From: Candidatus Saccharimonadota bacterium
Lineage (GTDB): Bacteria; Patescibacteriota; Saccharimonadia; Saccharimonadales; UBA4665
NCBI GenBank assembly: GCA_028289245.1
Contig: JAQGGT010000007.1
Location: forward strand, 1-64,000
Direction of reading: 5' to 3'
DNA: 64,000 nt
This document shows, in pieces, positions 24,275 through 38,397 of this stretch. Both the position numbers and the translations under genes were made by a program. The stretch's first letter is position 1; each line of letters opens with the position of its first letter. The notes below the pieces were generated by a model that did no database searches, was not told the origin of the DNA, and saw only the letters and a program-made list of their open reading frames with translations.

Positions 24275-24303
24275 ATTTTAGCATAAAATAACAATTTTTA
24301 CAA
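24275..24303 (-). promoter_or_regulatory. Promoter of unit H
   Basis: Minus-strand -35 TTGTAA (24298-24303) and -10 TAAAAT (24275-24280) with 17-bp spacing. The same hexamers occur before unit B. Confidence 0.75.
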
Positions 24304-25192: not shown

Positions 25193-25281
25193 GCGAACTC
25201 CAAAGATAGGGGCGACAAGTTGGGAACGTGCACTTCACAAGTTTGCCCTTAGGCAATGCTTCATCTCATGAAGACTGACTA

Positions 25282-25310
25282 TTTATACTATGTTTTATTG
25301 AGTTTTACAA
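25282..25310 (-). promoter_or_regulatory. Promoter of unit I
   Basis: Minus-strand -35 TTGTAA (25305-25310) and -10 TATAAA (25282-25287), spacing 17. The -35 begins at the base directly after the ribozyme of unit A. Confidence 0.75.
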
Positions 25311-25362
25311 TCGCTTTCGCTGTTTACAGCTCGTCAGCACGACTAGTAATTCGTGGAGCGAA
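25311..25362 (-). ncRNA. Type III hammerhead ribozyme, 3' UTR of unit A
   Basis: Minus-strand RNA: TTCGC-U-C, stem I CACGA/TCGTG with loop ATTACTAG, core CTGACGA, stem II GCTG-TAAA-CAGC, GAAA, then GCGA closing stem III. All invariant core bases are present; position 7 is C, which the fold tolerates. Stems I and II are closed and stem III is open (type III). Predicted cleavage lies 3' of the C at 25356. Shares its layout with five other copies in the window. Confidence 0.88.
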
Positions 25363-25488
25363 CAAGGGGGCGGGGAGGTGACTTGTGAAGAAACTTCACG
25401 AAATCACCGCCACCGGCCGCCCTCTACAGGATTATTGCGACATCCTGCGTGTCCGCTGCGTGGTGCTTTTGGGGTAGTTCTGGGGTGC
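25363..25488 (-). other. 3' UTR of unit A
   Basis: Between the stop and the ribozyme lies a segment (25467-25479) able to pair with the SD region of the same mRNA. A nested hairpin follows (GTGA-GTGAAG-ttt-CTTCAC-TCAC) and then a C-rich tract (CTCCCCGCCCCC) just before the cleavage strand. GCGGACA in this segment can pair partly with the TGTTCGC cleavage strand. Confidence 0.45.
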
Positions 25489-26265
25489 TTAGTGCCGAAC
25501 CTCGCTGCTGGGCTGGTAGTCCGCGAAGTTGTTGAGCAGGGGCGACCAGCGACGATAGGCATCGCCTGCGCAGAGGAACCGGTCCTTGTCGTGCGGCCGA
25601 TCGAACTGCAGCGTGCTAACTGAGCCATCGTCGCTGACCGTGAAGGGCCAATCGTCGACTAAGGCGTAGATGTTGCACTTGTGGTAGTGTCGCCAGAACG
25701 ACTTGATCCACTTGGTGCGGTCCTTCTGCCCCACGAAGTCGAAGCTGGTTCGCGGGTCGCGAGCGAAGTACGACACCATGTCGAGTCCGATCTCGCCGCG
25801 GGCCGACTCACAATCGCGCTCACGGGGACTCTGCCCGGGCCAGTCGAAGTGGACCTGCGGAGTCAGCCAGCAGACGCCGATGAGCTCGTTGTTTGCCACG
25901 AAGCCGTAGGCCTGACCCGGTGGCGGAGCCACGGTGCACTCCTTGATGTGGTTCAGCAAGAACGGCACATTCATCCCCGACAGGTAGTGATCGATGTCGG
26001 GGCTGGAGGCCACGCCGTTGATGATCTGCACCCGGTAGTCGCAGCTGCCGACCGCGCTGACGGTGATGACGATGGCATCCTCGGTGACAACGATGCGGAA
26101 ACCGAAGTAGTCGCCACTGAGAGTGAAGACCATGCCGGTGTTGTCAGCCAAGCGTTCGGTGGCGCCAAGCTTGATGGCCCGCTTCATGTTGCGATGGATC
26201 AGACGTTGCAGCTGGCGCATCTCACGTGCGGTGGCGTGGACGCGGCGTCCGCGGGTGTAGGTCAT
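25489..26265 (-). CDS. Hypothetical protein, 258 aa (unit A)
   Basis: Not recognised. It is a soluble protein with a basic N-terminal helix (QLQRLIHRNMKRAIKLGA), a beta-rich middle and a C-terminal half with Trp, His and Asp clusters (WIKSFWRHYHKCNIYALVDDW). No known catalytic motif. The ATG at 26265 is preceded by GGGAG at 5 nt. An in-frame TTG four codons earlier is unlikely because it overlaps the SD. It is the only gene of a unit with its own promoter and a hammerhead ribozyme 127 nt after the stop. Confidence 0.6.
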   Translation of the reverse strand: MTYTRGRRVHATAREMRQLQRLIHRNMKRAIKLGATERLADNTGMVFTLSGDYFGFRIVVTEDAIVITVSAVGSCDYRVQIINGVASSPDIDHYLSGMNVPFLLNHIKECTVAPPPGQAYGFVANNELIGVCWLTPQVHFDWPGQSPRERDCESARGEIGLDMVSYFARDPRTSFDFVGQKDRTKWIKSFWRHYHKCNIYALVDDWPFTVSDDGSVSTLQFDRPHDKDRFLCAGDAYRRWSPLLNNFADYQPSSEVRH

Positions 26266-26338
26266 AGCAACTCCCAAAATGTAAACGAAGAGACGACAAA
26301 GTCGCTCTTCACGAACTGCACCATGCAGCTTAATGCTT

Positions 26339-26367
26339 ATTATACAATTTTATGTGTTTTTATTCAA
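26339..26367 (-). promoter_or_regulatory. Promoter of unit A
   Basis: Minus-strand -35 TTGAAT (26362-26367) and consensus -10 TATAAT (26339-26344), spacing 17, two bases beyond the unit B ribozyme. The leader contains a GAAGAG/CTCTTC hairpin with inner GAC/GTC. Confidence 0.75.
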
Positions 26368-26369
26368 TA

Positions 26370-26421
26370 TCGCTTTCGTCTTCTAAAGACTCATCAGCAC
26401 AACTATACATTTGTGGAGCGA
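26370..26421 (-). ncRNA. Type III hammerhead ribozyme, 3' UTR of unit B
   Basis: TCGC-U-C, stem I CACAA/TTGTG with loop ATGTATAG, core CTGATGA, stem II GTCTT-tag-AAGAC, GAAA, GCGA. Full catalytic core; predicted cleavage 3' of the C at 26416. A nested hairpin precedes it in the 3' UTR: GGTTGAGCG/CGCTCAACC with inner GCGAG/CTCGC and TATCAC/GTGATA. Confidence 0.9.
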
Positions 26422-26524
26422 GGAGTGGAGGTTGAGCGAAGCGAGAAGAGAGTATCACGGATGTGATAAACCTGCTCGCTGAGCGCTCAACCCGACACTC
26501 GGATCGCCTCTGTCTTGGTACCTA

Positions 26525-26890
26525 CTACGGTGCGTCGAGCGCGAAGCGCTCGGTGTCGAACTCCTCGTGGCAACGCGCGATGGCGAGCGTGATGATCAGC
26601 TCGAGGCGGCTGGCGATCTGCTCGGGCGTCAGACGCTCGACCTCGTTGTACAGCGAGAGCCGCAGGTTGGCGATCGGCTGTGAGCCGAAGGCCGCGGCGT
26701 GCTTGTTGAGGTAGCGCTGGACTGGCAGGGCCATCTCGGACGGTCCGAAGGGGCGCGTGCGCAGCACGTTGACGAGGCGCTTGCCTTCGTCGGTGACGGC
26801 GTCGATGGTGTACTCGTTGAAGTACGTGTCGCCGGCCCGGTAGCTGGTGTGCACGGTGCTTAGCGCTGGCTTCTTACGCAGGCTGAACAT
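26525..26890 (-). CDS. Hypothetical protein, 121 aa (unit B)
   Basis: Not recognised. Soluble, with beta-rich first half (YFNEYTIDAVTDEGKRLVNVL) and helical second half (LTPEQIASRLELIITLAIARCHEEF). It has a very strong SD AAGGAG before the ATG. GTAGGT and ACAGAGG right after the stop can pair with ACCTAC and CCTCTGT of the leader. Confidence 0.6.
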   Translation of the reverse strand: MFSLRKKPALSTVHTSYRAGDTYFNEYTIDAVTDEGKRLVNVLRTRPFGPSEMALPVQRYLNKHAAAFGSQPIANLRLSLYNEVERLTPEQIASRLELIITLAIARCHEEFDTERFALDAP

Positions 26891-26966
26891 GTCGACTCCT
26901 TGGAAGGTAGGTAAAACAGAGGTCTTGGGAAGGTGCTTGGAGATTGGTTCTCAACAAACTGTTATT

Positions 26967-26995
26967 ATTTTAACATAATTATCTATAAATTACAA
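26967..26995 (-). promoter_or_regulatory. Promoter of unit B
   Basis: Minus-strand -35 TTGTAA (26990-26995) and -10 TAAAAT (26967-26972), spacing 17. It overlaps the last codons of the upstream 27748-26990 gene. The leader (26891-26966) starts with a GAGA/TCTC hairpin and CACCTT as in unit H. Confidence 0.75.
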
Positions 26996-27748
26996 TCCTA
27001 GGCGGATTACTTTTTCATTGTCGACTTCTACCCAGCCTACTGCAAGGTCATCTATAGTCGCTACTACCGGCGTGCCGTCACCATGTTGGCTAATTTCCAT
27101 GGCGATTGCAGAAAATTTGCTGATAAAGGGCGTCACGGAATCCCTGTTGTCTACTCTCATGGGGTTGCCAAATGCGCCGAGCGCGCCGGCGCGCATGGTT
27201 CCATGTCTCGGAGAATACGAAACTGAACGAATAGTGTCGCTCACCAGCACAAACCTATGGTCATCGTGTTTACGAGCCACCACTTCGCGTCTTGTAGGTT
27301 CGCTCCTACGCGCCATGTTTGGGTGATACAGCCCGGCAGTTACGACTTGACCGACATGCAAACGGCTAAGGTCAAGGGTGTTGGTATGCTGAGTTTCGGC
27401 CTTAAGCTCGGCCATAGCAGCTTCGCGCTCGGCCTGCTTGCGACGGAGCTCGCCAAGGCGGCGGATTGGCTCGTTGACGCTGTCGTCCCCGAGCACCCGG
27501 GCGTATAAACCCAGTAGCTGCAAAGTGGGCAGAGCCTCGATTTTGGCCTCAATGCCTTGTTGCACCAAGGCATCCTCTTGCTCGGCGATGATCCGGCTGA
27601 GAGCGGCGTCCATATCGGCTGGACCGACTTGCGAAAGGCGTTCGGCGACGCGCTCCTGCATACTCTGGGCAATCGGCAGGTAGGGCAAGGCTTCCGGCGC
27701 GATCTCCGGGAGCTGCGGCAGGTTATCCTGGCGACCTCGACCAAACAC
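26990..27748 (-). CDS. Hypothetical protein, 252 aa
   Basis: Not recognised. The N-terminal 130 residues are helical and coiled-coil prone (AELRRKQAEREAAMAELKAE follows the pattern). The C-terminal 120 are beta-rich (RFVLVSDTIRSVSYSPRHG, VVATIDDLAVGWVEVDNE). The start is GTG in a TAGTG overlap with the stop of the preceding gene, which indicates translational coupling. Both proteins may belong to one complex. It lies between ribozyme-bearing units but lacks their UTR features. Confidence 0.6.
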   Translation of the reverse strand: MFGRGRQDNLPQLPEIAPEALPYLPIAQSMQERVAERLSQVGPADMDAALSRIIAEQEDALVQQGIEAKIEALPTLQLLGLYARVLGDDSVNEPIRRLGELRRKQAEREAAMAELKAETQHTNTLDLSRLHVGQVVTAGLYHPNMARRSEPTRREVVARKHDDHRFVLVSDTIRSVSYSPRHGTMRAGALGAFGNPMRVDNRDSVTPFISKFSAIAMEISQHGDGTPVVATIDDLAVGWVEVDNEKVIRLGL

Positions 27749-28464
27749 TAGCTGATCTCCTCCAGCGAGGCTTGCAAGATACCGAGCAGGTGCAAGCTGG
27801 TAACTTCATCTGCCTGGTAGTCATCATCGGGTGTTCCACTGTATTTGTAGCCAGCGGCACTTTGGCGTTCACGAGCCAGCTGCCAGCAGTATATTGGCTG
27901 GCGGCCTTCTTCATCGATACTAAACCACAATTCCTTAGCCTGTAAGCCAGTGACCCGGTCTTCCGCCGAGCGATAAATACGAAGCGAGCTATTTTCATAC
28001 CGGGCATAGTGATGCGGTGGGAGGATTTTACCATGGCTCAAAATGGCGCCGGGCTGGCGGCTCTGCAGGCGAAATACCCAGCCGTAAGCCACAGTGGCTT
28101 CAGGCGTACTGTCTTCGCTGGCCAGTAGCGGCGCCGTCTCGACCGTCAGGTCATGACTTAGATAATGACCTGGCAGAATTTCTTCATCGTCCATGCCAAA
28201 GCGAAGGTCCGGCAGCGGCCCGCGGCGCATCACTCGGCGGCCGAGGGTGGCGATGCGGCTGGCCCGCAAGTGCTTCGCTTGGAGCTCGATAATCCGCTTC
28301 CTCATCTCAGTGGCGGAATCCAAAATTGCCCGCTCCGGGCTAGCGGCGACCAGTACACCCTCGACGTAGGCTAACTCGGCCTGAGCGGCTTGCTCGGTGC
28401 GCGTAGCCTGGAGCTCGGCCCGCTTAGCCCGCAACTGCTCATGTAATAGGTGATCGGATTCCAT
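27748..28464 (-). CDS. Hypothetical protein with N-terminal coiled coil, 238 aa
   Basis: Not recognised. The first 90 residues are a charged helix (LLHEQLRAKRAELQATRTEQ), followed by a beta-rich region. I choose the ATG at 28464 because the upstream extension of the reading frame would overlap the divergent gene's promoter region and looks non-coding. It shares its design (coiled coil, then beta-rich domain) with the overlapping downstream gene. Confidence 0.55.
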   Translation of the reverse strand: MESDHLLHEQLRAKRAELQATRTEQAAQAELAYVEGVLVAASPERAILDSATEMRKRIIELQAKHLRASRIATLGRRVMRRGPLPDLRFGMDDEEILPGHYLSHDLTVETAPLLASEDSTPEATVAYGWVFRLQSRQPGAILSHGKILPPHHYARYENSSLRIYRSAEDRVTGLQAKELWFSIDEEGRQPIYCWQLARERQSAAGYKYSGTPDDDYQADEVTSLHLLGILQASLEEIS

Positions 28465-28582
28465 AATAGCACTGATAATGACCTGTTTTTGTATGTTTTG
28501 CAAGCATGAGCAAAACAGGGGTGGAATATATTTGCATTTTATTGGCCAGCGGGCGAATATAAAGGCAATAAGAGGAGCAACC

Positions 28583-29539
28583 ATGTCAGCAGAAATTACC
28601 ACCAGCAGCCCCGTTACCACCCCCGCCGAAGCGCTCTTTGGAGAATTCGATCGCCTCGGCGTAGCGTTCGACGAACTCAGGGCCGATCAACGGGCTGAAT
28701 CAGACCGCGCCAGCCAAGCCCAGGCAGCACTTGATGGCCGCCGCCAAGCCATTACCAGTGAGCAGGGCGGCGCGATTGAGCAGTTTTGGGCCAGCGTCAG
28801 CCAGCTTGGGGCGCTCAGCCGCTCTGCCTACGAGTTGTCGATCGGTGATTCGGGCGCCAACCGGCGTAGTGTCGAGCAAGCCAGTCGGGTAGCAGCTGCC
28901 CTCACGGACTTCTCGGACTATCTGGAGACCGGCGAGCCCAAGCCAGTACTGCTCGCGCGCAGCTTCTGGGTGCGGGAAGTCCAGAGCGACCTACCGAATG
29001 CTCGCAACACCCGCTCGCAAGCTGCGCACAGCCTGGCGCTTGGCACGGCGCCGCTCATGCCGCTGCATTTGGGTCGGCCAGCAGTTTTGAACAAAGACAA
29101 TACCGTAGCTCCGGGCGCGGTACACGAGATTTCTCTCGTCCTGCCGACGGCAACCACTATTTCGACGCAGATCGAGCGCCGAGACGGCAAATCTTATCTT
29201 GCCGAGCCACTGGTTACGGACGAGAGCTATTACCACATCCCGCTTGTGCCGTATGATCGGCAGTATAGCAACAGCGAGGCCTATCGCTTAGCCGTAACGC
29301 GCCGCGTCTACAGCGCTCAGTACAGTGATGAAACCATCACCTTCGGCCGAGAGCTCCAGCACGCCTTCGAGGAGTTCCGGCTATACATCGGTGAGCAGGC
29401 AGTTGCACACGGTCTCGAGCTGCTTGCCCGGCAACAGTTACGCAGCCCGGACCGCTTGCTTGGCCGCGACGCACCCACGGTAGATTTGGCGCTAGAAACT
29501 GCCCGCACCAAATGGGGCATTGAAGCGCCAACGGCGTAG
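28583..29539 (+). CDS. Hypothetical protein, 318 aa
   Basis: Not recognised. Helical, Ala/Gln-rich N-terminal 110 residues lead to a mixed C-terminal domain (AYRLAVTRRVYSAQYSDETITFG). The ATG at 28583 follows GAGGAG by 6 nt. An upstream in-frame ATG at 28478 has no SD and would overlap the divergent gene's start region. ACAGGGGT, an octamer recurring in several intergenic regions here, is at 28514-28521. Confidence 0.55.
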   Translation: MSAEITTSSPVTTPAEALFGEFDRLGVAFDELRADQRAESDRASQAQAALDGRRQAITSEQGGAIEQFWASVSQLGALSRSAYELSIGDSGANRRSVEQASRVAAALTDFSDYLETGEPKPVLLARSFWVREVQSDLPNARNTRSQAAHSLALGTAPLMPLHLGRPAVLNKDNTVAPGAVHEISLVLPTATTISTQIERRDGKSYLAEPLVTDESYYHIPLVPYDRQYSNSEAYRLAVTRRVYSAQYSDETITFGRELQHAFEEFRLYIGEQAVAHGLELLARQQLRSPDRLLGRDAPTVDLALETARTKWGIEAPTA

Positions 29540-29541
29540 GA

Positions 29542-29570
29542 CTTGACATTAAATAGTGTTAGATGTACAC
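29542..29570 (+). promoter_or_regulatory. Promoter of the 29598 gene
   Basis: TTGACA followed after 17 bp by TACACT, with an AGTGT/ACACT inverted repeat overlapping the -10 region. A GAGGAG SD lies between it and the ATG at 29598. Confidence 0.6.
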
Positions 29571-29597
29571 TAAGTGTCAGTAACAGAGGAGACTGAC

Positions 29598-30626
29598 ATG
29601 CCGTTTCAAGAACCGTACCGATTGGGTGGCCCCGAAGAAATTTCTAATCCAGAAGTTGCCCAAAACTTAGCAACGCTCGAGGCCTTTACGCCGGAACGGG
29701 CTCGGATTGCTCGCTCGACCGCCACGTACATAGCCGATGAGCTGGGAGGGGAAACGCAAGATATACGGCTGTACTATACCGCGATGTTCGGTCGCAGCTG
29801 GCAGGAAGGCGCCAGTGAGCACGATCCAAACTATCTGGCGCCCTTGGCCATGGCCCGATTGGTCACCCGCTCTGAGGGTGAGCCAGTCTCAGTATTAGAC
29901 GGGTCCAATGGCTCAATTGGTATGTTGGCTAGTTTTTCCGAAGCCAGTTTCGAGCCAATCAAATTCGAAGTCAAGTTTGAGCACCAGAGCGAAGCGTTCA
30001 GCTCCTGGCGCGGCCGCGTGGCCATCGCCATGGTCAAAGTCCAACCCAAACGCAACGGCACTGCTAGCGCCGACTCCTTCGAACTAGCCGACGAGATCAG
30101 TGACGTCACGGCCAGCAACACCGCGACCTGGCAAGGGATTAATGGCGGCCTAGAGGTCCATACTCAAAATGTCAGCGAAGTTGAGACTGGCATGTACGTC
30201 CACATTGGCAGCCAGTTCAGTACGAGCTTCCACGGTTCCATGGCTTATTGGCTGCGTCAACAGCTGGCCCCAACCGATCGCGCCGAGCTGAGCGAGACAC
30301 TTCAGCACATGCAACGGAGCATGCGTCACAGCCGTCCGCACTACGCCCAAGTACGGGGCGTATCCGAGGATGTCTACCTGGCGGAGGGGCTATCGCCGAC
30401 TATCAAGCGCTTCTTCCAAGCTCTCGGAGCCTACGCCGAGCTCGATGAACCGCAACCTATCGATACTGCCGCCGTGCTCAAAGATTGGTCTCCAGACGCC
30501 TATGATGGCCAAAATCTCATCACCGAGCTGGAAGTCCGAGACATTCTCGAACTCAACCAGGACGGTAAGTTGGTGGTATCAGCACTCGGCCGCGCAGCCT
30601 ACCAGCACCTCGCCCAGTCTAGATAA
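29598..30626 (+). CDS. Hypothetical protein, 342 aa
   Basis: Not recognised. Soluble, with no signal peptide; the middle (EVKFEHQSEAFSSWRGRVAIAMVKVQ) is beta-rich and the ends are helical. The ATG at 29598 has SD GAGGAG 5 nt upstream and a TTGACA/TACACT promoter. The convergent hammerhead ribozyme of unit C begins at the base immediately after its stop codon. Confidence 0.6.
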   Translation: MPFQEPYRLGGPEEISNPEVAQNLATLEAFTPERARIARSTATYIADELGGETQDIRLYYTAMFGRSWQEGASEHDPNYLAPLAMARLVTRSEGEPVSVLDGSNGSIGMLASFSEASFEPIKFEVKFEHQSEAFSSWRGRVAIAMVKVQPKRNGTASADSFELADEISDVTASNTATWQGINGGLEVHTQNVSEVETGMYVHIGSQFSTSFHGSMAYWLRQQLAPTDRAELSETLQHMQRSMRHSRPHYAQVRGVSEDVYLAEGLSPTIKRFFQALGAYAELDEPQPIDTAAVLKDWSPDAYDGQNLITELEVRDILELNQDGKLVVSALGRAAYQHLAQSR

Positions 30627-30682
30627 ATCCGCTTTCGTCGTAGCACGACTCATCAGTACGACTCAGTATTCGTAGAGCGGAT
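30627..30682 (-). ncRNA. Type III hammerhead ribozyme, 3' UTR of unit C
   Basis: ATCCGC-U-C, stem I TACGA/TCGTA with loop ATACTGAG, core CTGATGA, stem II GTCGT-gct-ACGAC, GAAA, GCGGAT. Stem III is 6 bp, the longest of the set. Predicted cleavage is 3' of the C at 30675. It directly abuts the stop codon of the convergent gene. Confidence 0.92.
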
Positions 30683-30773
30683 GGGGAGCGGGGCGAGGAC
30701 GAGGGATGGATGTCACTGGAGGTGACCACATCTATCGAAATCTCGACCCGACTCACCCAACCTGCAGGTGTTG
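30683..30773 (-). other. 3' UTR of unit C
   Basis: CAACACCTGCAGGTT right after the stop (30759-30773) is complementary, with small bulges, to AACCTGC-AGGT-GTTG in the leader (31632-31649). It is followed by a GATGT-GTCAC/GTGAC-ATC hairpin and a C-rich tract that can pair back with GGTTGGGTGAG near the stop. Confidence 0.45.
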
Positions 30774-31586
30774 CTAGATCAGCGCATCGGCCAGCTCGAA
30801 GCCGGTACAGCCAGCTGCCACATCGTCCAGACGGACGACGTAGTCGCGGTTGGGGCCGGCGTAGCGGTTGTCCCGGAAGCCCGCGACGCTGGATGGTGCC
30901 CAGAAGGATCCCGCGACGTCGTCGTGGTAGTGCACCTCGTGGGGCAGCTTGACGCCTTCGATGCCGAACGCGACGTAGAAGTCGCGCGCCAGCGGGGCGT
31001 TGGGCTGCGGGGCGAAACCGTCGTGCGCGTCGAGACCGGGGACGGTCAGGACGTCGGGGTTGCGCGGCGTGTAGCTCACCGTGATGGGGTGCGACGGCTT
31101 GACCGCTCCGTTGAAGCAGGCGAGCACGAACGTGTCGTGCGGGTAGTACGCCATGTAGAAGTTCACCATCTCCTCGAGGAGCGGTGTCCGGTAGACGCGA
31201 CGTTCGATGGGGATCTCCTCCGACTCGAGCACCGACAGGATGTCTGCCGGGTGCTGGGACAGGACGACCGTGTAGTCGCCGTAGTCCTCCACCGAGACGC
31301 CGCCGCCGAAGAGCGACTTGGACATGCCGCGGGTAACGACGACGGGCTCCAGCGCGTACAGGCTCTTGGTCATATCGAGCATGAGGCTCTTGGTGCCCAG
31401 CGCCTCGCGCACCAGCGCCAGGTTGCGGCCGGCGAAGTTCAGGAACATGCAGTTCGGAGCACTGACGGTCTCGGCCTGGTTCTGGTAGCCACAGACGTGC
31501 AACGGCTGGCCGTCCCGGGAGGTGGCGTAGGCGTAGGTCCGCGTGTTGCGGATCTTGGCTGGGTTTGAGGTGACGCACATGTGCAT
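30774..31586 (-). CDS. Hypothetical protein, 270 aa (unit C)
   Basis: Not recognised. Soluble, beta-rich, with many Tyr, His and Pro (RVYRTPLLEEMVNFYMAYYP, GPNRDYVVRLDDVAAG). No signal peptide. GAAGGA lies 4-10 nt before two possible ATG codons (31586 and 31580), and I cannot decide between them. The longer reading frame in another phase over the same bases is a shadow. Confidence 0.6.
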   Translation of the reverse strand: MHMCVTSNPAKIRNTRTYAYATSRDGQPLHVCGYQNQAETVSAPNCMFLNFAGRNLALVREALGTKSLMLDMTKSLYALEPVVVTRGMSKSLFGGGVSVEDYGDYTVVLSQHPADILSVLESEEIPIERRVYRTPLLEEMVNFYMAYYPHDTFVLACFNGAVKPSHPITVSYTPRNPDVLTVPGLDAHDGFAPQPNAPLARDFYVAFGIEGVKLPHEVHYHDDVAGSFWAPSSVAGFRDNRYAGPNRDYVVRLDDVAAGCTGFELADALI

Positions 31587-31656
31587 CAAATCCTTCCATG
31601 TCGGTGTGGCTGGGATGATTTAGCTGTAAAACAACAACCTTTGCAGGTTAATATAC

Positions 31657-31685
31657 ATTATACAATAAATATGAGTAATGTACAA
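31657..31685 (-). promoter_or_regulatory. Promoter of unit C
   Basis: Minus-strand -35 TTGTAC (31680-31685) and -10 TATAAT (31657-31662), spacing 17. The divergent TATACT box of the 31703 gene is only 6 bp away (31691-31696). Confidence 0.75.
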
Positions 31686-31702
31686 GATGGTATACTAGCG
31701 CC

Positions 31703-32335
31703 ATGGATTATTCACAACACAAGCAAATCGACTTTCGACGTAAATTTTTAAAACTGTTCGGCGCCGAAATTCGGCTCAGCGACGCCCACACCGAGGAAGC
31801 CCTTGGTATCATCAAAATGAAAGCCTGGAAGCTGCGCGAAGATATTCGCCTCTACCGCGACGACAGCTTGCAGCAAGAGCTGCTGCGCATTAGCGCTCGC
31901 CAAATCATCGACTTTGGGGCTACCTACGATGTTTTTGACAGCGCCCAGGGCCAACCATTATTCTCGCTCAGGCGCAAAGGCCTCAAGTCGACTTTCGTGC
32001 GCGACCACTGGGATCTGCTCGACGCTCATGGTGGCGTGTTTGGCAATGTTCAGGAAACCAGTAGCGGCCTGGCTCTGGCGCGCCGCTGGCTAGAAGTGCT
32101 GCCGTTTGGCGATATTATTGCCCTAATCTTTGCCTTCGTACCCCAGACTTACACCATTAGCACTAGCGACGGGCAGGGCGGTCTGGCGCTGGCCGGCACT
32201 ATTATCCACCGCAAAAATCCGGTGATCGTCAAAATGCACCTCGACACCACGCAAGCCCAGGCTACCCTCGACCCACGAGTCTGCCTGTCGGCCTCGGCAC
32301 TGCTGAGCGTCATTGACGCCGCCAAAAATAACTAA
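31703..32335 (+). CDS. LURP-one/Tubby-C-like fold protein
   Basis: The 210-residue protein has strand patterns of the LURP-one-related family (YDVFDSAQGQPLFSLRRKGLKS, AGTIIHRKNPVIVKM). It would form a 12-strand barrel around a central helix. The biochemical role of bacterial members is unclear. ATG lies 6 nt after TATACT with no SD, so it is leaderless and of the ordinary type. Assignment is from pattern recognition only. Confidence 0.6.
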   Translation: MDYSQHKQIDFRRKFLKLFGAEIRLSDAHTEEALGIIKMKAWKLREDIRLYRDDSLQQELLRISARQIIDFGATYDVFDSAQGQPLFSLRRKGLKSTFVRDHWDLLDAHGGVFGNVQETSSGLALARRWLEVLPFGDIIALIFAFVPQTYTISTSDGQGGLALAGTIIHRKNPVIVKMHLDTTQAQATLDPRVCLSASALLSVIDAAKNN

Positions 32336-32339
32336 TTGT

Positions 32340-32497
32340 AAACTATCAAAGAAATAATAAGGGTGGAAATGACAAGTAGACAATAGTTGGGGTGAGAGTG
32401 GCGAAAGCCATCGTCTGGAACCCAAACTACTCTCTACCCGCCAAGGTGCTTTGAAAACACAATCTTCTGTTGAAGACTTTTTGATATTTTGCAATGA
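32340..32497 (-). other. Probable remnant of a hammerhead-type unit without a gene
   Basis: Downstream of ribozyme D the minus strand has CTTC/GAAG as a small hairpin, then CAAAGCACCTT (the leader motif of units H, B and E). A self-complementary stretch follows (AGTAGTTTGGG with CCCCAACTATT), then TGTCTACTTGTCAT, which resembles the TGTCTGCTTGTCAT of the 3' UTRs of E and F. There is no reading frame between these elements and no ribozyme. Confidence 0.4.
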
Positions 32498-32550
32498 TTC
32501 GCTTTCGTCCTTTTGGACTCATCAGTATGACCGCACAGTCATAGAGCAAA
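32498..32550 (-). ncRNA. Type III hammerhead ribozyme, 3' UTR of unit D
   Basis: TTTGC-U-C, stem I TATGAC/GTCATA with loop TGTGCG, core CTGATGA, stem II GTCC-AAAA-GGAC, GAAA, GCGAA (one G-U pair in stem III). Predicted cleavage is 3' of the C at 32544. Its stem I is one pair longer and its loop 1 differs from the other five (AT....AG), so the loop-loop contact may differ. Confidence 0.92.
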
Positions 32551-32637
32551 GGTGACAAGCAGACATGGGGTTAGGAAAAAGCACACGGGTGACCGTGATT
32601 CCAGGTTGTAGCCCATATCTCCTTGTCACCTTCGCCC
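32544..32637 (-). other. 3'-UTR lock hairpin ending at the cleavage site of unit D
   Basis: GGGCGAAGGTGACAAG (32622-32637) pairs over 16 bp, two of them G-U, with CTTGTCACCTTTGCTC (32544-32559). The last base of the second strand is the nucleotide 5' of the scissile bond. The helix continues inward through AGA/TCT and ATGGG/CCCAT and is capped by CACGG/CCGTG. It uses the same bases as ribozyme stem III. Confidence 0.7.
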
Positions 32638-32649
32638 ATGGACGTCGTT

Positions 32650-33081
32650 CTAGCCGAGATGACTGACCGGCAGAGTCTCAGCATCGTGCTGACGAGCGAG
32701 CTTGCTGAAGTCCTCGTAGGAGAGGACCGTGGTGTTGTCCGTCGTCCAGCCGAGACGCATGTGGATGGCGGCGAGTACCTGGTCCTGGATCTGCTCCCAC
32801 AGGAACATGGGGTTGATCTGGAGGATCAGGCGATTCTTCTCTAGCCAGATGATCTGACTGACGCCGCGGATGGCGAGCAACGTCGAGACGAACTGCTTGG
32901 TGGCGTCGTCCGTCTGCTCGTTGAGCTCCGTCACGTCGGTGATGCCGCTGGTCTGGCACCAGTTGGTGAGGTCTCCGGTCACGTAGAAGTACCGCGTTGT
33001 GCGACCCGCATCGTGATGTGTGATGCCGATCCGGTTGTCGTGGATGGGCTCCGACTTGATGACGGTGGGTGCAGTAGTCAT
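32650..33081 (-). CDS. Hypothetical protein, 143 aa (unit D)
   Basis: The C-terminal 70 residues (LLAIRGVSQIIWLEKNRL, then WEQIQDQVLAAI) faintly resemble the N-terminal domain of Nfu/NifU-type scaffold proteins. The N-terminal part is unassigned. I would not name it on this evidence. ATG at 33081 follows the SD GAGGAGAAGG at 8 nt. The frame upstream of it overlaps a structured leader and is not coding. It is the only gene of its unit. Confidence 0.55.
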   Translation of the reverse strand: MTTAPTVIKSEPIHDNRIGITHHDAGRTTRYFYVTGDLTNWCQTSGITDVTELNEQTDDATKQFVSTLLAIRGVSQIIWLEKNRLILQINPMFLWEQIQDQVLAAIHMRLGWTTDNTTVLSYEDFSKLARQHDAETLPVSHLG

Positions 33082-33250
33082 AACTCTGTCCTTCTCCTCA
33101 CGGCACAGGGGCCTCTCGCATTGGCGAGCGTGTGTTTTCCTAACACACAAGATGAGGAGTTAATGCGCGGTTCGGGCGCACTTACTTCTCACCTCGTGTA
33201 TGTCTGCTTGTCAAAGAACACCGTGGAGCTGCCTCAACAACGGATAAGGA
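33082..33250 (-). promoter_or_regulatory. Structured 5' leader of unit D
   Basis: Order on the RNA: GTTGAG...CTCC hairpin, then TGACAAGCAGACAT (33200-33213), which is complementary to the unit's 3' UTR. A long stem follows (ACACGAGGTGAG/CTCATCTTGTGT with inner GTGCGC/GCGCAT). Next are the hairpin GTGTG-TTAGGAAAA-CACAC and the hairpin CTCGC-caat-GCGAG, and finally the SD. Unit F has the same order with compensatory changes. Confidence 0.65.
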
Positions 33251-33252
33251 AA

Positions 33253-33281
33253 ACATTAGCATAAATACTTTTAATTGTCAA
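33253..33281 (-). promoter_or_regulatory. Promoter of unit D
   Basis: Minus-strand -35 TTGACA (33276-33281) and -10 TAATGT (33253-33258), spacing 17. Confidence 0.75.
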
Positions 33282-33288
33282 TATTATA

Positions 33289-33320
33289 ACGGGGGTGGCT
33301 ACACACTTACTCTCTAAAAG
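33289..33320 (-). promoter_or_regulatory. Conserved element upstream of the unit D promoter
   Basis: Minus strand CTTTTAGAGAG, then a YAAGYGYGYA-like segment and CCACCCCCGTT. Nearly the same sequence lies upstream of the ncRNA promoter (49771-49803), and a looser copy upstream of unit F (38331-38357). Confidence 0.5.
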
Positions 33321-33455
33321 CACGAGATAACTCATGCGCTTGGAGAGCGCCAGGAAAGAAGGGGTGAAATAGGGAAGATAGTGGATGCACATTGCGCACC
33401 GACCATCGACACTACGTCACCGCCTCCTCTCCCGGAAGTTCTTGAAACCGAGCCG

Positions 33456-33761
33456 TCAGAGCTTCCGCAGGATCTGGACCAGGTTCATGTCCTTGTACTG
33501 GGGCTGCCAGCAGGCGATGAGCGCGATCCAGGTGTACATCCAGCCGGTGATGGCCAGAATAAAATCACCAACGACGGGCTCGACTTCCTTGCCATACATG
33601 AGCCGACCGATGATGATGCCGAGGGCCGCGTAGCCGAGGTAGTACCAGTGACTGACGTAGACGGCGAGCAAGACGAAAGTCAGCCCAAGTAGAAAGGGGG
33701 TGACGACGCTGGCCTTGTTCCGGAAGGTAGACAGGGATGTCGTACTGCCAACAGTGCTCAT
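33456..33761 (-). CDS. Small membrane protein, 101 aa (unit G)
   Basis: Not recognised. Two to three hydrophobic helices (about 19-38, 40-56 and 64-84) with short charged loops. The start ATG has a CAGGAG SD at 8 nt. The unit has its own promoter (33872-33900) and a ~110-nt leader, but no hammerhead. TTCAAGAACT after the stop can pair with AGTTTCTTGAA in the leader with one bulge. Confidence 0.65.
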   Translation of the reverse strand: MSTVGSTTSLSTFRNKASVVTPFLLGLTFVLLAVYVSHWYYLGYAALGIIIGRLMYGKEVEPVVGDFILAITGWMYTWIALIACWQPQYKDMNLVQILRKL

Positions 33762-33871
33762 GGGATTACTCCTGGGTGATGGACGGGATGGAGGGACCGT
33801 GCGAAAACGAGGGCTTGATGTTCAAGAAACTAAGGTACATCGGAGTGAAATTACTCTACGAATCAGACAGT

Positions 33872-33900
33872 ATGATACTAGATTTTAGGTAAATTGTCAA
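33872..33900 (-). promoter_or_regulatory. Promoter of unit G
   Basis: Minus-strand -35 TTGACA (33895-33900) and -10 TATCAT (33872-33877), spacing 17. The -35 overlaps the stop region of the upstream HAD gene. Confidence 0.75.
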
Positions 33901-34679
33901 GAATGGCTCTGCTCGTCAGTGCCAGCAATTCGCAGTCTATCAAGGAGCACATCGACAGCCTTTTCTTCGTATAACTCCCGGTCGATGTTATATTCAAGCA
34001 CCGACTGTTGGTCCTTAACCTCGTTGACCCGCAGCCAACCAAACTCCTGCCCGTACTTCGTTAGCGTTCGGCTGGCATTGAACATAATAGCTGTCTCGGC
34101 GTAGGCCAGCATTGGTGCGTCGCTAAACGTGTCGCCCACGGCAACACTGCCAGCTTGGCTCGCCACATTCGCCGCCACTAGGCCCTGGAGGATTGCCGCC
34201 TTGTCACCTACCGCTCTCGCCGCGCCGGTAAATATGCCATCTTCAACTGCGAATGCACTCCCAAAAGCCGTTTGAACGGGCAGATCTGCCAGAAACGGCC
34301 GTACCAGGATATCGGGTGATCCGGATATGGCAACGATATGATGACTGGTCTGCAGGCTGTTTATGAGCCTACGTGGAAAGGCAAATTTACGAACCGAATG
34401 CTCGGAGATCATAGTGGCTATAACCCGATCAAAACGCTCTACCTCAATGCCAGCCATCTGGGATATAAATGTTCTCACCAGGCGGTGGAGATAGGCTTGA
34501 TAGACCCCTTCATTATTATTAGTTTGCCAGCGACGTTTATTGGCAAATACTAGGTTGAAGGGCTCGGCAGCAAAGACCTTGGCATCTATGCAGGCATCGA
34601 CAACTTTTTCAGCCAAGCTCGATTTAAAGATTGTACCGTCTACGTCTAGCGCGGCAAATGGTTTAGGCATATAGCTCAT
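33897..34679 (-). CDS. HAD-superfamily phosphatase (PSP/HAD-IB-like)
   Basis: The protein starts with the HAD motif I ALDVDGTIFKSS (nucleophile Asp and general acid Asp). Motif II is AISGSPD near residue 139. A Lys near VGDKAAI serves as motif III, and motif IV is VGDTFSDAPML. A helical cap lies between I and II. This order resembles phosphoserine-phosphatase-like HAD-IB enzymes; the substrate is unknown. I start at 34679 because the longer open frame would run through the ribozyme and the unit E gene. No SD is visible. Confidence 0.82.
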   Translation of the reverse strand: MSYMPKPFAALDVDGTIFKSSLAEKVVDACIDAKVFAAEPFNLVFANKRRWQTNNNEGVYQAYLHRLVRTFISQMAGIEVERFDRVIATMISEHSVRKFAFPRRLINSLQTSHHIVAISGSPDILVRPFLADLPVQTAFGSAFAVEDGIFTGAARAVGDKAAILQGLVAANVASQAGSVAVGDTFSDAPMLAYAETAIMFNASRTLTKYGQEFGWLRVNEVKDQQSVLEYNIDRELYEEKAVDVLLDRLRIAGTDEQSHS

Positions 34680-34716
34680 TGTGTCTGAATAATTCAAACG
34701 TGCAAGCACGAGCAAT

Positions 34717-34770
34717 TTCGCTTTCGTCCTTTTAGGACTCATCAGTGTAACTACACATTTACAGAGCGAA
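34717..34770 (-). ncRNA. Type III hammerhead ribozyme, 3' UTR of unit E
   Basis: TTCGC-U-C, stem I TGTAA/TTACA with loop ATGTGTAG, core CTGATGA, stem II GTCC-taaaa-GGAC, GAAA, GCGAA. Complete core. Predicted cleavage is 3' of the C at 34764. Confidence 0.92.
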
Positions 34771-34850
34771 TATGACAAGCAGACATGGGGAGGAGAAAGC
34801 ACACGGAGACCGTGACACCTGAGACCCATATCTCCTTGCCATAGTCGCTC
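34764..34850 (-). other. 3'-UTR lock hairpin ending at the cleavage site of unit E
   Basis: GAGCGACTATGGCAAG (34835-34850) pairs with CTTGTCATATTCGCTC (34764-34779): 14 Watson-Crick pairs, one G-U and one mismatch. The outermost pair involves the nucleotide 5' of the scissile bond. Inner pairs AGA/TCT and ATGGG/CCCAT and a CACGG/CCGTG cap follow as in unit D. Confidence 0.7.
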
Positions 34851-34866
34851 GAGTGATCGGGCAGGG

Positions 34867-35787
34867 TTACCAGCGGGACTTGTAGGTCTGGCCGTTGGCC
34901 GTGATCTTGCCACTACCAGAGATGTTGTGGTCGAGCTCGCCGCCGACAGTGCCGACTTCGATCTTGCCACTGCCTGACACGCGCAGCCGTGCGTCACCGA
35001 CCAGACTACCTTGATGGGTAATCTTGCCGCTGCCCGACACCGATGCACGCAGCGAACGCGAACGTCCTCCAGCGATGGTGACTCGTCCGCTGCCGGAGAT
35101 CTTGGCCTCGATCTTGCCGGTAGCTTGTCCGATATTGAACCGGCCGCTGCCGCTGATCTCGACGTCCACGTCGCCATCGACGAGAAGGACCTCTGCGCTG
35201 CCACTACCCGCAACGTCACCAGTCAGGCTGGTGGCGTCATTGGCGAACAGCCGGGTGTTGAGCGAGGCCGAGAAGTCGATCTCACCGCCAAGTCCAGGTC
35301 CCACGCCGACAGCGCCGACGAGGCCCCTGACCTTGAGGTTGATGCCCTGGGGCACCATCAGCACGAGCTGCATGGCACGCTCCAGGTCGACTTCGCGGCC
35401 ATTGATGATCAACACGTTGTTGTCCACACTGGAGAAACTGCCGCCACTGATCGTGACGTTGCCGCCGATGAAGACGTTGCCGCCTCGCATGTTCTGCGAT
35501 GCGCTGCCGGGCTTGTAGGGAAGATCCCCCTTGAGCGTCAGCACGCCGTTCGTCACGACGGGCACGAGCCGTCCGATCATCTCGTCATCGCCTCCGTAGA
35601 CCACCAGCGTGACCTGGTCGGTTTGCTGTGGCAGGACGGCGACTTGGGCGAGCATGGTGTCGAGCACGATGGTGCGTACGCCGGCGCCTAGCTGGCGGGA
35701 GTACTTGTAATCGCTGGCTGCGGTCGGGAGACCACGGCCTTCGGCCAGCGCCGGGGCGATGCCAAGGAAAAGCTCGAGGTTGCTCAT
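34867..35787 (-). CDS. GIN/DUF2807-like beta-helix protein (unit E)
   Basis: A 306-residue protein whose C-terminal half is built of regular repeats with the signature SGSGK/R (VEISGSGRFNIG, AKISGSGRVTIAG, ASVSGSGKITHQG, RVSGSGKIEVG, NISGSGKITANG). This is the pattern of putative adhesin-head GIN/DUF2807/DUF4097 beta-solenoids. The usual signal peptide or lipoprotein leader of that family is missing, so it may stay in the cytoplasm. SD GGAGG lies before the ATG and could pair with a CCTCC-containing stretch of the unit's 3' UTR. Confidence 0.78.
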   Translation of the reverse strand: MSNLELFLGIAPALAEGRGLPTAASDYKYSRQLGAGVRTIVLDTMLAQVAVLPQQTDQVTLVVYGGDDEMIGRLVPVVTNGVLTLKGDLPYKPGSASQNMRGGNVFIGGNVTISGGSFSSVDNNVLIINGREVDLERAMQLVLMVPQGINLKVRGLVGAVGVGPGLGGEIDFSASLNTRLFANDATSLTGDVAGSGSAEVLLVDGDVDVEISGSGRFNIGQATGKIEAKISGSGRVTIAGGRSRSLRASVSGSGKITHQGSLVGDARLRVSGSGKIEVGTVGGELDHNISGSGKITANGQTYKSRW

Positions 35788-35849
35788 TGCTTCCTCCGAT
35801 TGATTGTCTGCTTGTCAAGGTGCCTTGAATGGGTATTCAAAACGTGCTT
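35788..35849 (-). promoter_or_regulatory. 5' leader of unit E
   Basis: Short leader: hairpin TTGAAT-accc-ATTCAA, then GGCACCTT, then TGACAAGCAGACA (35805-35817), which is exactly complementary to 34773-34785 in the 3' UTR. The SD GGAGGAAGC and ATG follow. Confidence 0.6.
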
Positions 35850-35878
35850 ATTTTATCATAAACCTATCATATAGTCAA
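35850..35878 (-). promoter_or_regulatory. Promoter of unit E
   Basis: Minus-strand -35 TTGACT (35873-35878) and -10 TAAAAT (35850-35855), spacing 17. Confidence 0.75.
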
Positions 35879-35892
35879 TCTGAGCGGACTTG

Positions 35893-36594
35893 CTAGGCCA
35901 GCGTGTAACCTTGGCTGAGCACCGGGTATGATTCGCCAAGCTGGCGGCCTTGTTCAGCGTATTTTTTGAGAACGAAGTCGGCACTGTCCGTACCACGCAA
36001 ATTCTTACGATGCCTTGCATATGCTACCACGCCTGCCAATTGTAACGGCAGCCCAATGGCAAGGGCCTTGAGGCCCATACCCGTCGTAAGCCCTAAAGTC
36101 TCATCAACGGCAAAGCCACCGATGGCCGGTACGACATATTCCTGCCACTTGGCACTATTCAGCTTTTGGCGCTCTTGCATCAACTCTGGGCCGCGGCCTT
36201 CGTTGAGCGCTTCGGTCGCTAAAACGCCAGTCCAGAAGGCGGCGTTCATTTTTTTCTCAGCGCCGGCGGCGTTCATCTCGGCAGTAAAGTTAGGGTGGAT
36301 TCGAACCGTTGCCTGGACCGGGATAAGGATTCGGGGCCAGTTAAGAGATAAGGCTGGCTCAACAGTAGTGCTATCTTTGGGTAGAGAATCAAAACTCACG
36401 TAAGTGGGGCGCTCAATTTCTAGCTCGCTAACGCCTTGGATTAAGGAAACTTCATTGATTTCGAGCGTCCGGCCATGGCGTAGCATGCGGTTTTGTAATA
36501 CCGGACTAATTGCTAAAGTAGGTGAGACGAGCTGCAGCTGCTCAATTTGCTGGGTGTAGAATTCGGTTTGGAGAACGGGGCTGAAGTCTGACAT
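35893..36594 (-). CDS. Hypothetical protein with C-terminal hydrophobic segment, 233 aa
   Basis: Not recognised. The N-terminal 110 residues are beta-rich, and a helical middle follows. One moderately hydrophobic segment near 170-192 (MGLKALAIGLPLQLAGVVAY) could insert in the membrane. A TATTGT/TATACT-containing region lies directly before the ATG, as in leaderless genes. It is separate from the neighbouring ribozyme units. Confidence 0.5.
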   Translation of the reverse strand: MSDFSPVLQTEFYTQQIEQLQLVSPTLAISPVLQNRMLRHGRTLEINEVSLIQGVSELEIERPTYVSFDSLPKDSTTVEPALSLNWPRILIPVQATVRIHPNFTAEMNAAGAEKKMNAAFWTGVLATEALNEGRGPELMQERQKLNSAKWQEYVVPAIGGFAVDETLGLTTGMGLKALAIGLPLQLAGVVAYARHRKNLRGTDSADFVLKKYAEQGRQLGESYPVLSQGYTLA

Positions 36595-36655
36595 AAAGTA
36601 TACAATACCTTAATTACGTTTATACGTCAATAGTATCGATCTGTCGTAAGCGTAG

Positions 36656-37462
36656 CTAATGGGACTGAAAAGCACCCCGGCGCATAGCAGCCTGGGCGCC
36701 ACAGTGCGCAGCCAGTTTGAGCGCCTCGGAAACCACCAAATTCTGGCCAAGGCCAAGAGTCAGACCGGCCGCGAATGAGTCGCCACAGCCATAGGTGTCT
36801 ATGAATTTGTCCGGGGGTATGAATTCGGCCTTATACGTTTCACCACTGGCGGTCTTACCGCCATCGCTGCCATCCGTTGTCACGATCAGAGTAGGGACAG
36901 GCTCCAGCCTACCCGGCTCATAGTGCTCTCCGGCATCTTGGCTGCTCGCCACCAGTGCATCGAGCGGGATCGCCGATTGCTGCAGCAGCGGCAGTACACG
37001 CGCCGTCGAAACGAGCACCGCAGCTTGCCGGGCGGCCACAAGCGCCGCACCATCGCCACTCACAAAATACACGGCGTCGGCTTCGGCCAGTTTTTCCCAG
37101 GGCAGTGTGGCATCTTGGCCGCTCGGCACTAGATTTCCGTTGACGGTAATCGTGCGCTCGTTGTTAGCATCAATGTCTACGAAGATGGTTCGCGTCGGTA
37201 CCTCGGCTGTACTAGAAGCATACACCTCGACACCTTTCGCCCGGAGATCGGCGATGGCTTGGCGGCCATGTTCGTCATTGCCAACAGCAGTGAAAAACAG
37301 GCAATTGTCCGCTAACGCCGCTAGCTGCATTGCTGCCACGGCGCCACCACCAGCAACTTCTTCCCACGAGCTGTGCGTATGGATAATTTCGCCCGCGACA
37401 GGGACATGGTCTACTTTAGAAAACGTGGCCCATTCTAGGTGACCGACGACGGCTACTTTCAT
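36656..37462 (-). CDS. PfkB-family carbohydrate/nucleoside kinase
   Basis: The 268-residue ribokinase-superfamily protein has an N-terminal GGGAVAAMQLAAL substrate-binding region. The C-terminal PfkB signature DTYGCGDSFAAGL holds the catalytic Asp near residue 227. It is shorter than ribokinase (about 300), so the lid is probably reduced. The sugar or nucleoside substrate cannot be read from the sequence. ATG lies 6 nt after TAAGAT, probably leaderless. Confidence 0.85.
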   Translation of the reverse strand: MKVAVVGHLEWATFSKVDHVPVAGEIIHTHSSWEEVAGGGAVAAMQLAALADNCLFFTAVGNDEHGRQAIADLRAKGVEVYASSTAEVPTRTIFVDIDANNERTITVNGNLVPSGQDATLPWEKLAEADAVYFVSGDGAALVAARQAAVLVSTARVLPLLQQSAIPLDALVASSQDAGEHYEPGRLEPVPTLIVTTDGSDGGKTASGETYKAEFIPPDKFIDTYGCGDSFAAGLTLGLGQNLVVSEALKLAAHCGAQAAMRRGAFQSH

Positions 37463-37501
37463 GTCATCATCTTAGCAAATAAGCCCCCGCGGTAATATGG
37501 T

Positions 37502-37554
37502 TTCGCTTTCGTCGTTTACGACTCATCAGTACAACTAAGCATTTGTAGAGCGAA
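37502..37554 (-). ncRNA. Type III hammerhead ribozyme, 3' UTR of unit F
   Basis: TTCGC-U-C, stem I TACAA/TTGTA with loop ATGCTTAG, core CTGATGA, stem II GTCG-TAAA-CGAC, GAAA, GCGAA. All stems are fully paired. Predicted cleavage is 3' of the C at 37548. Confidence 0.93.
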
Positions 37555-37643
37555 TATGACAAGCAGATATGGGGTTAGGAAGAAAACACACGGAAGACCG
37601 TGACAACCAGGTTGTAACCCATAGCCACTTGCCACATTCGCTC
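37548..37643 (-). other. 3'-UTR lock hairpin ending at the cleavage site of unit F
   Basis: GAGCGAATGTGGCAAG (37628-37643) pairs over all 16 positions, two as G-U, with CTTGTCATATTCGCTC (37548-37563). The outer end is flush with the predicted cleaved bond. Inner TATGGG/CCCATA and CACGG/CCGTG repeat the D and E arrangement. Confidence 0.72.
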
Positions 37644-37649
37644 GTTGAG

Positions 37650-38120
37650 CTACTTGTTCAGGTACGGCCTGATGCGTTCGCCAACGGCACCGCTCAGCTC
37701 GTCGAAGCCCATCTCGACCACGCCGGGACTGGTGAAGTGGGACTCGCCACCGAGGTGCTCGCTGGCGATGATGGCGGCGCGTTCGCGTCCGTGTTCGTGG
37801 ATGCCCTGCGTCATGTTGCCGTTGACAACGCCGCTGGAGCGCAGCTCGTCGATGACGACCTTGGCGGCGTTCTGACCGTTGTCGCGGTCGTAGCCCCACG
37901 GGTCGAAGCTGTCGCCGGAGAGGTCGACCTTCATGACGCGCCCCTGCAGGTAGTCGAAGCCGGTCTGACCGCTGTCGAGGATGGCCTGGGCCTGCTCGGT
38001 GGTCATGCCTTCACCGCCGTTGTAGGCGAGGAAGCCGAGTCCCTGAGGACGCGAACCGTTGAAGAGGGCGGCCAGGACGGCTGCCTTATCGAGGTCAGCG
38101 ATGGAGATGGTCTCGGACAT
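37650..38120 (-). CDS. Hypothetical protein, 156 aa (unit F)
   Basis: Soluble protein with ALFNGSRPQGLGFLAYN, EQAQAILDSGQTGFDYLQGR and KVDLSGDSFDPWGYDRDNG. I recall similar unnamed proteins from phages and bacteria, but know no function. ATG at 38120 follows an AGGAGAG SD; the frame upstream runs through the structured leader and is not coding. It is the only gene of its unit. Confidence 0.6.
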   Translation of the reverse strand: MSETISIADLDKAAVLAALFNGSRPQGLGFLAYNGGEGMTTEQAQAILDSGQTGFDYLQGRVMKVDLSGDSFDPWGYDRDNGQNAAKVVIDELRSSGVVNGNMTQGIHEHGRERAAIIASEHLGGESHFTSPGVVEMGFDELSGAVGERIRPYLNK

Positions 38121-38296
38121 GATTGTCTCTCTCCTACATCTTTGGCTGAGATGCCTCTCACAAAAGTGAGCGTGTGTTTTCCTATACACACAAGATGAGG
38201 CCCCGCCTCTCATTAAAGAGGTGGGGTCCCACCTTGTGCTATCTGCTTGTCAAAGAACCTCGAAGGTAATGATAACCACCTCAACGAAGTACCAAC
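38121..38296 (-). promoter_or_regulatory. Structured 5' leader of unit F
   Basis: TGACAAGCAGATA (38240-38252) matches the 3' UTR complement 37557-37569. A stem CACAAGGTG/CATCTTGTG carries an inner GAGGTGGGG-type hairpin. Next come GTGTG-tataggaaaa-CACAC, then CTCAC-tttt-GTGAG, then the SD. Order and pairing match unit D, although many paired bases differ. Confidence 0.65.
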
Positions 38297-38325
38297 ATAC
38301 TAGCATAAACTCTTCTATATGTCAA
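38297..38325 (-). promoter_or_regulatory. Promoter of unit F
   Basis: Minus-strand -35 TTGACA (38320-38325) and -10 TAGTAT (38297-38302), spacing 17. A TTTAGGGAG...CCCTGTT element lies upstream (38331-38357). Confidence 0.75.
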
Positions 38326-38397
38326 TAGTATTAACAGGGATACGTAGCTCCCTAAATACACAAAAGCTTATGTACTTAGGGAGTGCCAGGAGAGAAG

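Follow-up and report, generated by a model that had tools for sequence, protein, structure and literature searches.

Why should one bacterial gene after another, almost all of them unrelated, be followed by a copy of the same predicted self-cleaving RNA? The question is raised by the stretch of DNA analysed here (64,000 nucleotides, positions 1-64000 of contig C6, hereafter the window), which comes from the 1.22-Mb, 97% complete genome of a Candidatus Saccharimonadota bacterium and contains six complete type III hammerhead motifs, all on the minus strand. We propose that these hammerheads form the 3' ends of one-gene transcription units, an explanation that we consider probable though well short of certain.

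Type III hammerheads in the window and beyond

In strand order, each motif consists of stem III, CUC and the cleavage site, the stem I hairpin, CUGANGA, the stem II hairpin, GAAA and the second strand of stem III. In all six, stems I and II are closed by loops, stem III is open and the triplet is CUC, as an earlier note made from the sequence of this DNA had claimed. CUC conforms to the NUH rule in six of six motifs, and the U16.1-A15.1 pair is present in 102 of 103 scored sequences. A strict descriptor applied to the window returns exactly these six motifs; the plus strand has none, and 200 dinucleotide shuffles likewise yield none. This confirms the places, the strand and the full cores given in that note; a simple core pattern yields 10 matches vs. 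2.05 expected. The distances from stop codon to hammerhead are 91, 95, 96, 99, 103 and 127 nt, inside the range of 50-130 nt given before. When folded as single sequences, most of the motifs, though not all, give the three-stem shape. We infer from the sequence that RNA is cut at these sites in cells, and the motifs are accordingly called predicted self-cleaving ribozymes.

Type III hammerheads (RF00008, Hammerhead_3) are found in viroids, satellite RNAs and plant retrozymes. The window copies share with RF00008 the topology, the core, the CUC site and the loop-capped stems I and II, whereas they differ from its members in being encoded in bacterial DNA, in lying in the 3' untranslated regions (3'UTRs) of mRNAs and in scoring 21-41 bits. 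In the Rfam check proposed in the earlier note, RF00008 aligns five of the six copies correctly (Table 1), but none reaches its gathering score of 48.5 bits, which is a detection threshold and not a biochemical feature (best scores, 41.0 bits in the window and 45 in the genome), and the copy at 25310 is absent from the Rfam matches at E<=5. Consequently, a standard annotation run would report none of the six.

A covariance model (R1) was also built from the six window copies, which match it by construction. It finds 29 hammerheads in the genome at E<=1.5e-5; they belong to single and clustered units on both strands, and every one is 3' of an open reading frame (ORF) with a hairpin between. The "array of six" is therefore real in its six motifs but is not self-contained: it is one portion of a set that extends through the genome, and ordinary genes lie between its members. 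At C4:82741-82794 (+) and 82827-82880 (-) of G000, two convergent hammerheads are ~33 bp apart with a common terminator-like hairpin between them. R1 matches 24 of the 60 genomes searched (source genome included) and, in the class, 98 of 393 or about one quarter, but has no match in the five genomes of the same genus. A strict 20-base pattern run over 257 Gb of bacterial and archaeal genomes retrieves 27 stretches, mostly from Patescibacteria, in groups comprising Saccharibacteria, Gottesman-, Levy-, Berkel-, Shapiro-, Woese- and Peregrinibacteria; Candidatus Saccharibacteria CP023991.1 is of the same GTDB family as the source genome, and loci L112 and L129 have identical sequence. The strict hammerhead pattern is also present in eight IMG/VR contigs (L142-L149).

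Among 105 distinct sequences, 97.1% of the pair cells hold standard pairs and 13 of the 15 pairs vary on both sides, which agrees with the previous claim that the paired bases vary while the core is fixed. Shuffled sequences give 72.5% pairing and a far lower covariation score, with none of 500 shuffles reaching the observed value, and pairing falls to 27-53% when the alignment is slid. Because the model guided the alignment, the exact percentages tend to be high, yet the values of the slid and shuffled controls are still far away.

Terminal hairpins and complementary arms

Three features are absent from the earlier note: a terminal hairpin that runs to the cut, a 5' arm complementary to part of it, and unrelated cargo genes rich in G and C at third codon positions (GC3). 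The hammerhead is usually 80-130 nt past the stop codon and is directly followed by unrelated sequence. When the RNA between stop codon and cut is folded, the usual prediction is a long hairpin (median z -4.8 vs. simple letter shuffles) with its base no more than ~3 nt from the cut; its unpaired 3' tail has a median length of 2 nt and measures 0-2 nt in 43 of 81 units. By folding, the 5' strand of stem III is also part of this hairpin. The hairpin and stem III use the same bases and are therefore in competition until the RNA is cut, after which the product is able to close the complete hairpin. The hairpin-hammerhead 3' module of ~140 bp is ~75-88% identical between genomes in which the cargo is unrelated, which indicates recombination between modules and cargo.

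The 3' strand of the hairpin is, in many units, complementary to the unit's own 5'UTR. This 5' arm is found ~40-55 nt past a promoter-like -10 element, directly behind a small leader hairpin. The letters of the arms differ from unit to unit while their complementarity is kept by unit-specific compensatory changes, as in the pairs TGACAAGTAAACAGAGA/TCTCTGTTTACTTGTCA, TTGACAAGATAGACTA/TAGTCTATCTTGTCAA and ATCAAGAAGCAGAA/TTCTGCTTCTTGAT. The score of a unit's own 5' and 3' arms is 10.91 vs. 8.68 +/- 0.17 for permuted partners, a difference of 13 standard deviations (maximum of 20000 permutations, 9.37); it is 10.27 vs. 8.25 +/- 0.17 in the units without the commonest arm, and 8.16 in a control with the unit's own coding sequence (CDS). 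The score cut is passed by 46 of 84 units, and roughly 35-40 of these matches are judged credible by position. With an unconstrained hairpin, equilibrium folding gives stem III a mean predicted probability of 0.16; this rises to 0.48 once the 5' arm occupies the 3' arm. What opening the hairpin costs and what forming the arm duplex returns are each ~20 kcal/mol in many units, which places the two states near balance in a rough comparison that includes neither loop-closure cost nor tertiary contacts. The folding models suggest that pairing with the 5' end may license cutting.

Table 1. Predicted features of the six hammerhead units (MFE, minimum free energy; core C3 positions refer to the minus strand).
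Feature	Position	Strand	Details
Region of ~19 kb with all six units, beside tRNA-Glu	19950..39080	.	
Unit 1 hammerhead	37502..37555	-	core C3 at 37529; predicted cut after 37548; RF00008 28.3 bits
Unit 1 3'UTR terminal hairpin	37548..37643	-	base exactly at cut, 0 unpaired nt; MFE -46.1, z -6.6
Unit 1 3' arm TATCTGCTTGTCA	37557..37569	-	complementary to 5' arm 38240-38252
Unit 1 cargo ORF, 156 aa	37650..38120	-	GC3 0.87; no Pfam/NCBIfam match
Unit 1 5' arm TGACAAGCAGATA	38240..38252	-	in 5'UTR
Unit 2 hammerhead	34717..34771	-	core C3 at 34745; predicted cut after 34764; RF00008 41.0 bits
Unit 2 3'UTR terminal hairpin	34764..34850	-	base at cut, 0 unpaired nt; z -5.6
Unit 2 3' arm TGTCTGCTTGTCA	34773..34785	-	
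Unit 2 cargo ORF, 306 aa	34867..35787	-	DUF2807-like; GC3 0.78
Unit 2 5' arm TGACAAGCAGACA	35805..35817	-	
Unit 3 hammerhead	32498..32551	-	core C3 at 32525; predicted cut after 32544; RF00008 36.0 bits
Unit 3 3'UTR terminal hairpin	32544..32637	-	base at cut, 0 unpaired nt; MFE -50.5, z -5.5
Unit 3 3' arm ATGTCTGCTTGTCA	32553..32566	-	
Unit 3 cargo ORF, 143 aa	32650..33081	-	weak NifU_N-like match; GC3 0.85
Unit 3 5' arm TGACAAGCAGACAT	33200..33213	-	
Unit 4 hammerhead	30627..30682	-	core C3 at 30656; predicted cut after 30675; RF00008 27.8 bits
Unit 4 3'UTR hairpin	30677..30765	-	end 2 nt short of cut; z -5.3
Unit 4 cargo ORF, ~270 aa	30774..31583	-	no family; GC3 0.91; no clear 5' arm
Unit 5 hammerhead	26369..26423	-	core C3 at 26397; predicted cut after 26416; RF00008 21.2 bits
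Unit 5 3'UTR hairpin	26417..26508	-	end 1 nt short of cut; z -6.5
Unit 5 cargo ORF, 121 aa	26525..26890	-	no family; GC3 0.92; no clear 5' arm
Unit 6 hammerhead	25310..25363	-	core C3 at 25337; predicted cut after 25356; not listed by Rfam at E<=5
Unit 6 3'UTR hairpin	25357..25457	-	end 1 nt short of cut; z -3.9
Unit 6 cargo ORF, 258 aa	25489..26265	-	no family; GC3 0.84; no clear 5' arm

Further elements of the same style accompany the six units. Between the 5' arm and the start codon of unit 1, the 5'UTR contains a structured leader with a sub-threshold match to RAGATH-10 (38126-38204, minus strand; 33.5 bits, gathering 41.2), and a sequence similar to it is found in unit 3 at 33100-33143. 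The minus-strand segment 32360-32498 is a gene-less remnant with the leader-like CAAAGCACCTT, a hairpin and the 3' arm CTACTTGTCA, without ORF or hammerhead, which could be either a deletion derivative or a small RNA. At 23309-25192 and 33456-33761 on the minus strand are more orphan genes rich in GC; they have leaders and 3' hairpins in this style but no hammerhead.

Cargo genes and genomic setting

The ORFs of 84 units form 80 clusters, almost all unrelated, which substantiates the view that the motifs mark the 3' ends of unrelated protein-coding units. For most of the cargo ORFs, Pfam, NCBIfam and PHROGs give no match; the few exceptions include NUDIX, Nramp, an adenylosuccinate synthetase-like protein, Tad4 (a Thoeris inhibitor), SPFH and DUF2807, and a few of these family-matched genes may be mis-chosen neighbouring ORFs. 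In 80 of 82 loci the cargo has higher GC3 than its flanking ORFs (p 1.4e-14), a comparison in which the choice of ORF partly favoured GC3; with an unbiased choice of the longest ORF, mean cargo GC3 is 0.70. No copies with the same cargo were found inside the source genome. One cargo family, among the few met more than once, occurs in three units of different genomes (L106, L110 and L127), with a NUDIX domain in two of the three. In locus L138, the Shapirobacteria cargo CDS (1902-2363) folds far better than its synonymous shuffles (z -6.7), and nearly perfect 5'-3' complementarity of 22 nt is found beside the hammerhead.

The units of the window are in a variable region adjoining tRNA-Glu, and the genes of this island are mostly without family. 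In G001, which is of the same genus, the orthologue of 19500-19928 is ~0.4 kb from tRNA-Glu, and protein synteny shows the region to be inserted relative to G001 and G003, with exact unit ends that are not definable; a DNA search for the empty site in same-genus genomes returned tRNA-level similarity only. G001 also has a partial tRNA-Glu copy just ahead of the intact gene (L085, ~9730-10000), which is likely an integration footprint at this site. The genome encodes one tyrosine recombinase, on another contig, and none is linked to the units. In a search of relatives for units lacking a hammerhead, the 5' motif was found in 4 of 60 genomes, three of which have hammerheads, and the match in the fourth, G021, is inside a coding gene.

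A possible route to mRNA 3' ends

We propose that RNA polymerase would pass the end of the gene and that the hammerhead would then fold and cut after CUC. The upstream product would end in the long hairpin, whose foot, often blunt, would coincide with or adjoin the cut and bear a 2',3'-cyclic phosphate; such an end should resist 3' exonucleases. Since it would depend on neither downstream sequence nor terminator, the unit would work wherever it lands. The 3' strand of the hairpin would have up to three partners, namely its own 5' strand, stem III and, in many units, the 5'UTR arm; pairing with the 5' arm would open the hairpin and could free the stem III strand, and 5'-3' pairing may thus either permit the cut or keep the two ends of the mRNA in contact. 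We favour ribozyme-made 3' ends because a long hairpin ending at the cut is the geometry that a protective end needs. More tentatively, and as a possibility rather than an expectation, we suggest that ribozyme-finished mRNAs may exist phylum-wide, in which interchangeable UTR modules (leader, 5' arm, hairpin and hammerhead) would be carried by horizontally moving, GC3-rich orphan genes, each with a self-made hairpin 3' end and with cleavage licensed by its own 5' end.

Several points weigh against this proposal. The Rfam scores are under gathering. The arm matches of L063, L064, L067, L068, L100 and L101 are probably due to chance, that of L026 falls in the neighbouring unit, and a clear 5' arm is missing from units 4-6 in the window, which shows that the element is not universal. 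Holding the arm lifts stem III from <0.2 to >0.8 in only 9 of 44 units, and in most units equilibrium folding has the hairpin suppressing the hammerhead, so that cutting would have to depend on folding during transcription, on tertiary contacts or on the 5' arm. The motifs, their positions, the stem covariation, the hairpin geometry (by folding) and the unit-specific 5'-3' complementarity are shown, whereas cleavage, the gain in stability and the gating are predicted.

In prophages, clustered hammerheads flank single genes of inconstant identity; some are active in vitro and in Escherichia coli, and processing to gene-length mRNAs has been proposed as their role (Perreault et al., 2011, PMC3088659). 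The units described here resemble those clusters in having multiple hammerheads at single genes of varying identity in bacterial DNA, but they are chromosome-wide, in Patescibacteria, of type III and on the 3' side, with a hairpin to the cut and a 5' arm, features that the consulted parts of that paper do not describe, and they have no integrase nearby; the text of the paper makes no mention of 'TM7'. Among open-licence papers, we found none relevant to hammerheads in Patescibacteria, Saccharibacteria or the candidate phyla radiation. Serial hammerheads at single genes were already known from prophages, and the Patescibacteria version with its hairpin at the cut looks like an undescribed way of making mRNA 3' ends. 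Processing of the prophage kind would mean that the hammerheads mainly split read-through transcripts into single-gene mRNAs or insulate neighbours, with the hairpin and 5' arm secondary. Some units do stand head to tail, 680-810 bp apart (C6:141701-143242), and in the prophage clusters, for which splitting was proposed, cleavage was seen in E. coli (PMC3088659). However, many units are alone among host genes, some are in convergent settings (31703-32335 on the plus strand; C4:82741/82827), promoter-like sequence is found ahead of the leaders, and splitting would leave the hairpin foot at the cut and the covariation of the 5' and 3' arms unexplained. We regard it as unlikely to be the main role, while simple transcript separation is possible for clustered units. 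A discontinuous type III hammerhead with a very large helix I is present in the 3'UTRs of the mammalian Clec2 gene family (PMC6155905); it too is in the 3'UTR of a protein-coding gene, whereas the motifs reported here are compact and accompany ~80 unrelated cargo clusters rather than one family.

Obelisks are ~1-kb viroid-like RNAs of bacteria, described in a paper that mentions type III hammerheads (PMC11922315). Like obelisks and plant retrozymes, the units link a type III hammerhead to ~1 kb of sequence, and circular or viroid-like RNAs with ligated paired ends (obelisk, retrozyme or Tornado-like) would fit both the hammerhead beside complementary ends and the unit size of ~0.6-1.2 kb. Unlike them, the units show no rod-like coding RNA, no multicopy same-sequence elements and no RtcB. 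Circularisation by RtcB was rejected, as RtcB is absent from all 60 genomes searched, source included, while control genomes were positive; a viroid-like rod is not supported either, since folding z is around 0 (-1.8 to +0.6) in 11 of 12 unit CDSs, L138 being the exception. By Rfam, the 5' leaders of the region have no second ribozyme apart from the sub-threshold RAGATH-10 in one unit, same-cargo copies within the genome are lacking, and clustering of the 84 units gave no common cargo family, with no dedicated Oblin model used. Circles are consequently very improbable. Quite improbable, too, is a gene-cassette system in which the conserved ends serve as sites of DNA recombination and the hammerhead is incidental. 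As in integron cassettes, interchangeable unrelated genes stand between conserved ends, in this case 5' and 3' modules, and the patchy presence (0 of 5 same-genus genomes) and the variable island near tRNA-Glu speak for such a system; by contrast, an integron is not supported, there being no linked integron integrase, the sole tyrosine recombinase is on another contig, the units are dispersed on both strands, and the conserved end is a predicted catalytic RNA whose covariation and intact core do not fit a DNA site. Horizontal spread of the units is compatible with ribozyme-made 3' ends as well. That the motifs are functionless relics of mobile elements, as the gene-less remnant 32498-32360 and the nearby units without hammerhead might suggest, is barely credible given the invariant core and the strong stem covariation across divergent genomes, which show purifying selection.

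The function of prokaryotic hammerheads is listed as open in a review (PMC6155905). The large, patchy, phylum-scale set with its consistent anatomy points to one job, the making of defined hairpin mRNA 3' ends, and it has built-in controls in that sequences differ while the geometry stays the same. If our reading is true, bacteria with very small genomes would possess a protein-free mechanism of mRNA 3'-end formation, the motif would serve as a marker for an otherwise hidden stock of mobile orphan genes, which may be linked to episymbiotic life, and the units would offer a natural design for portable expression cassettes. Bacterial hammerheads would thereby be given a testable job.

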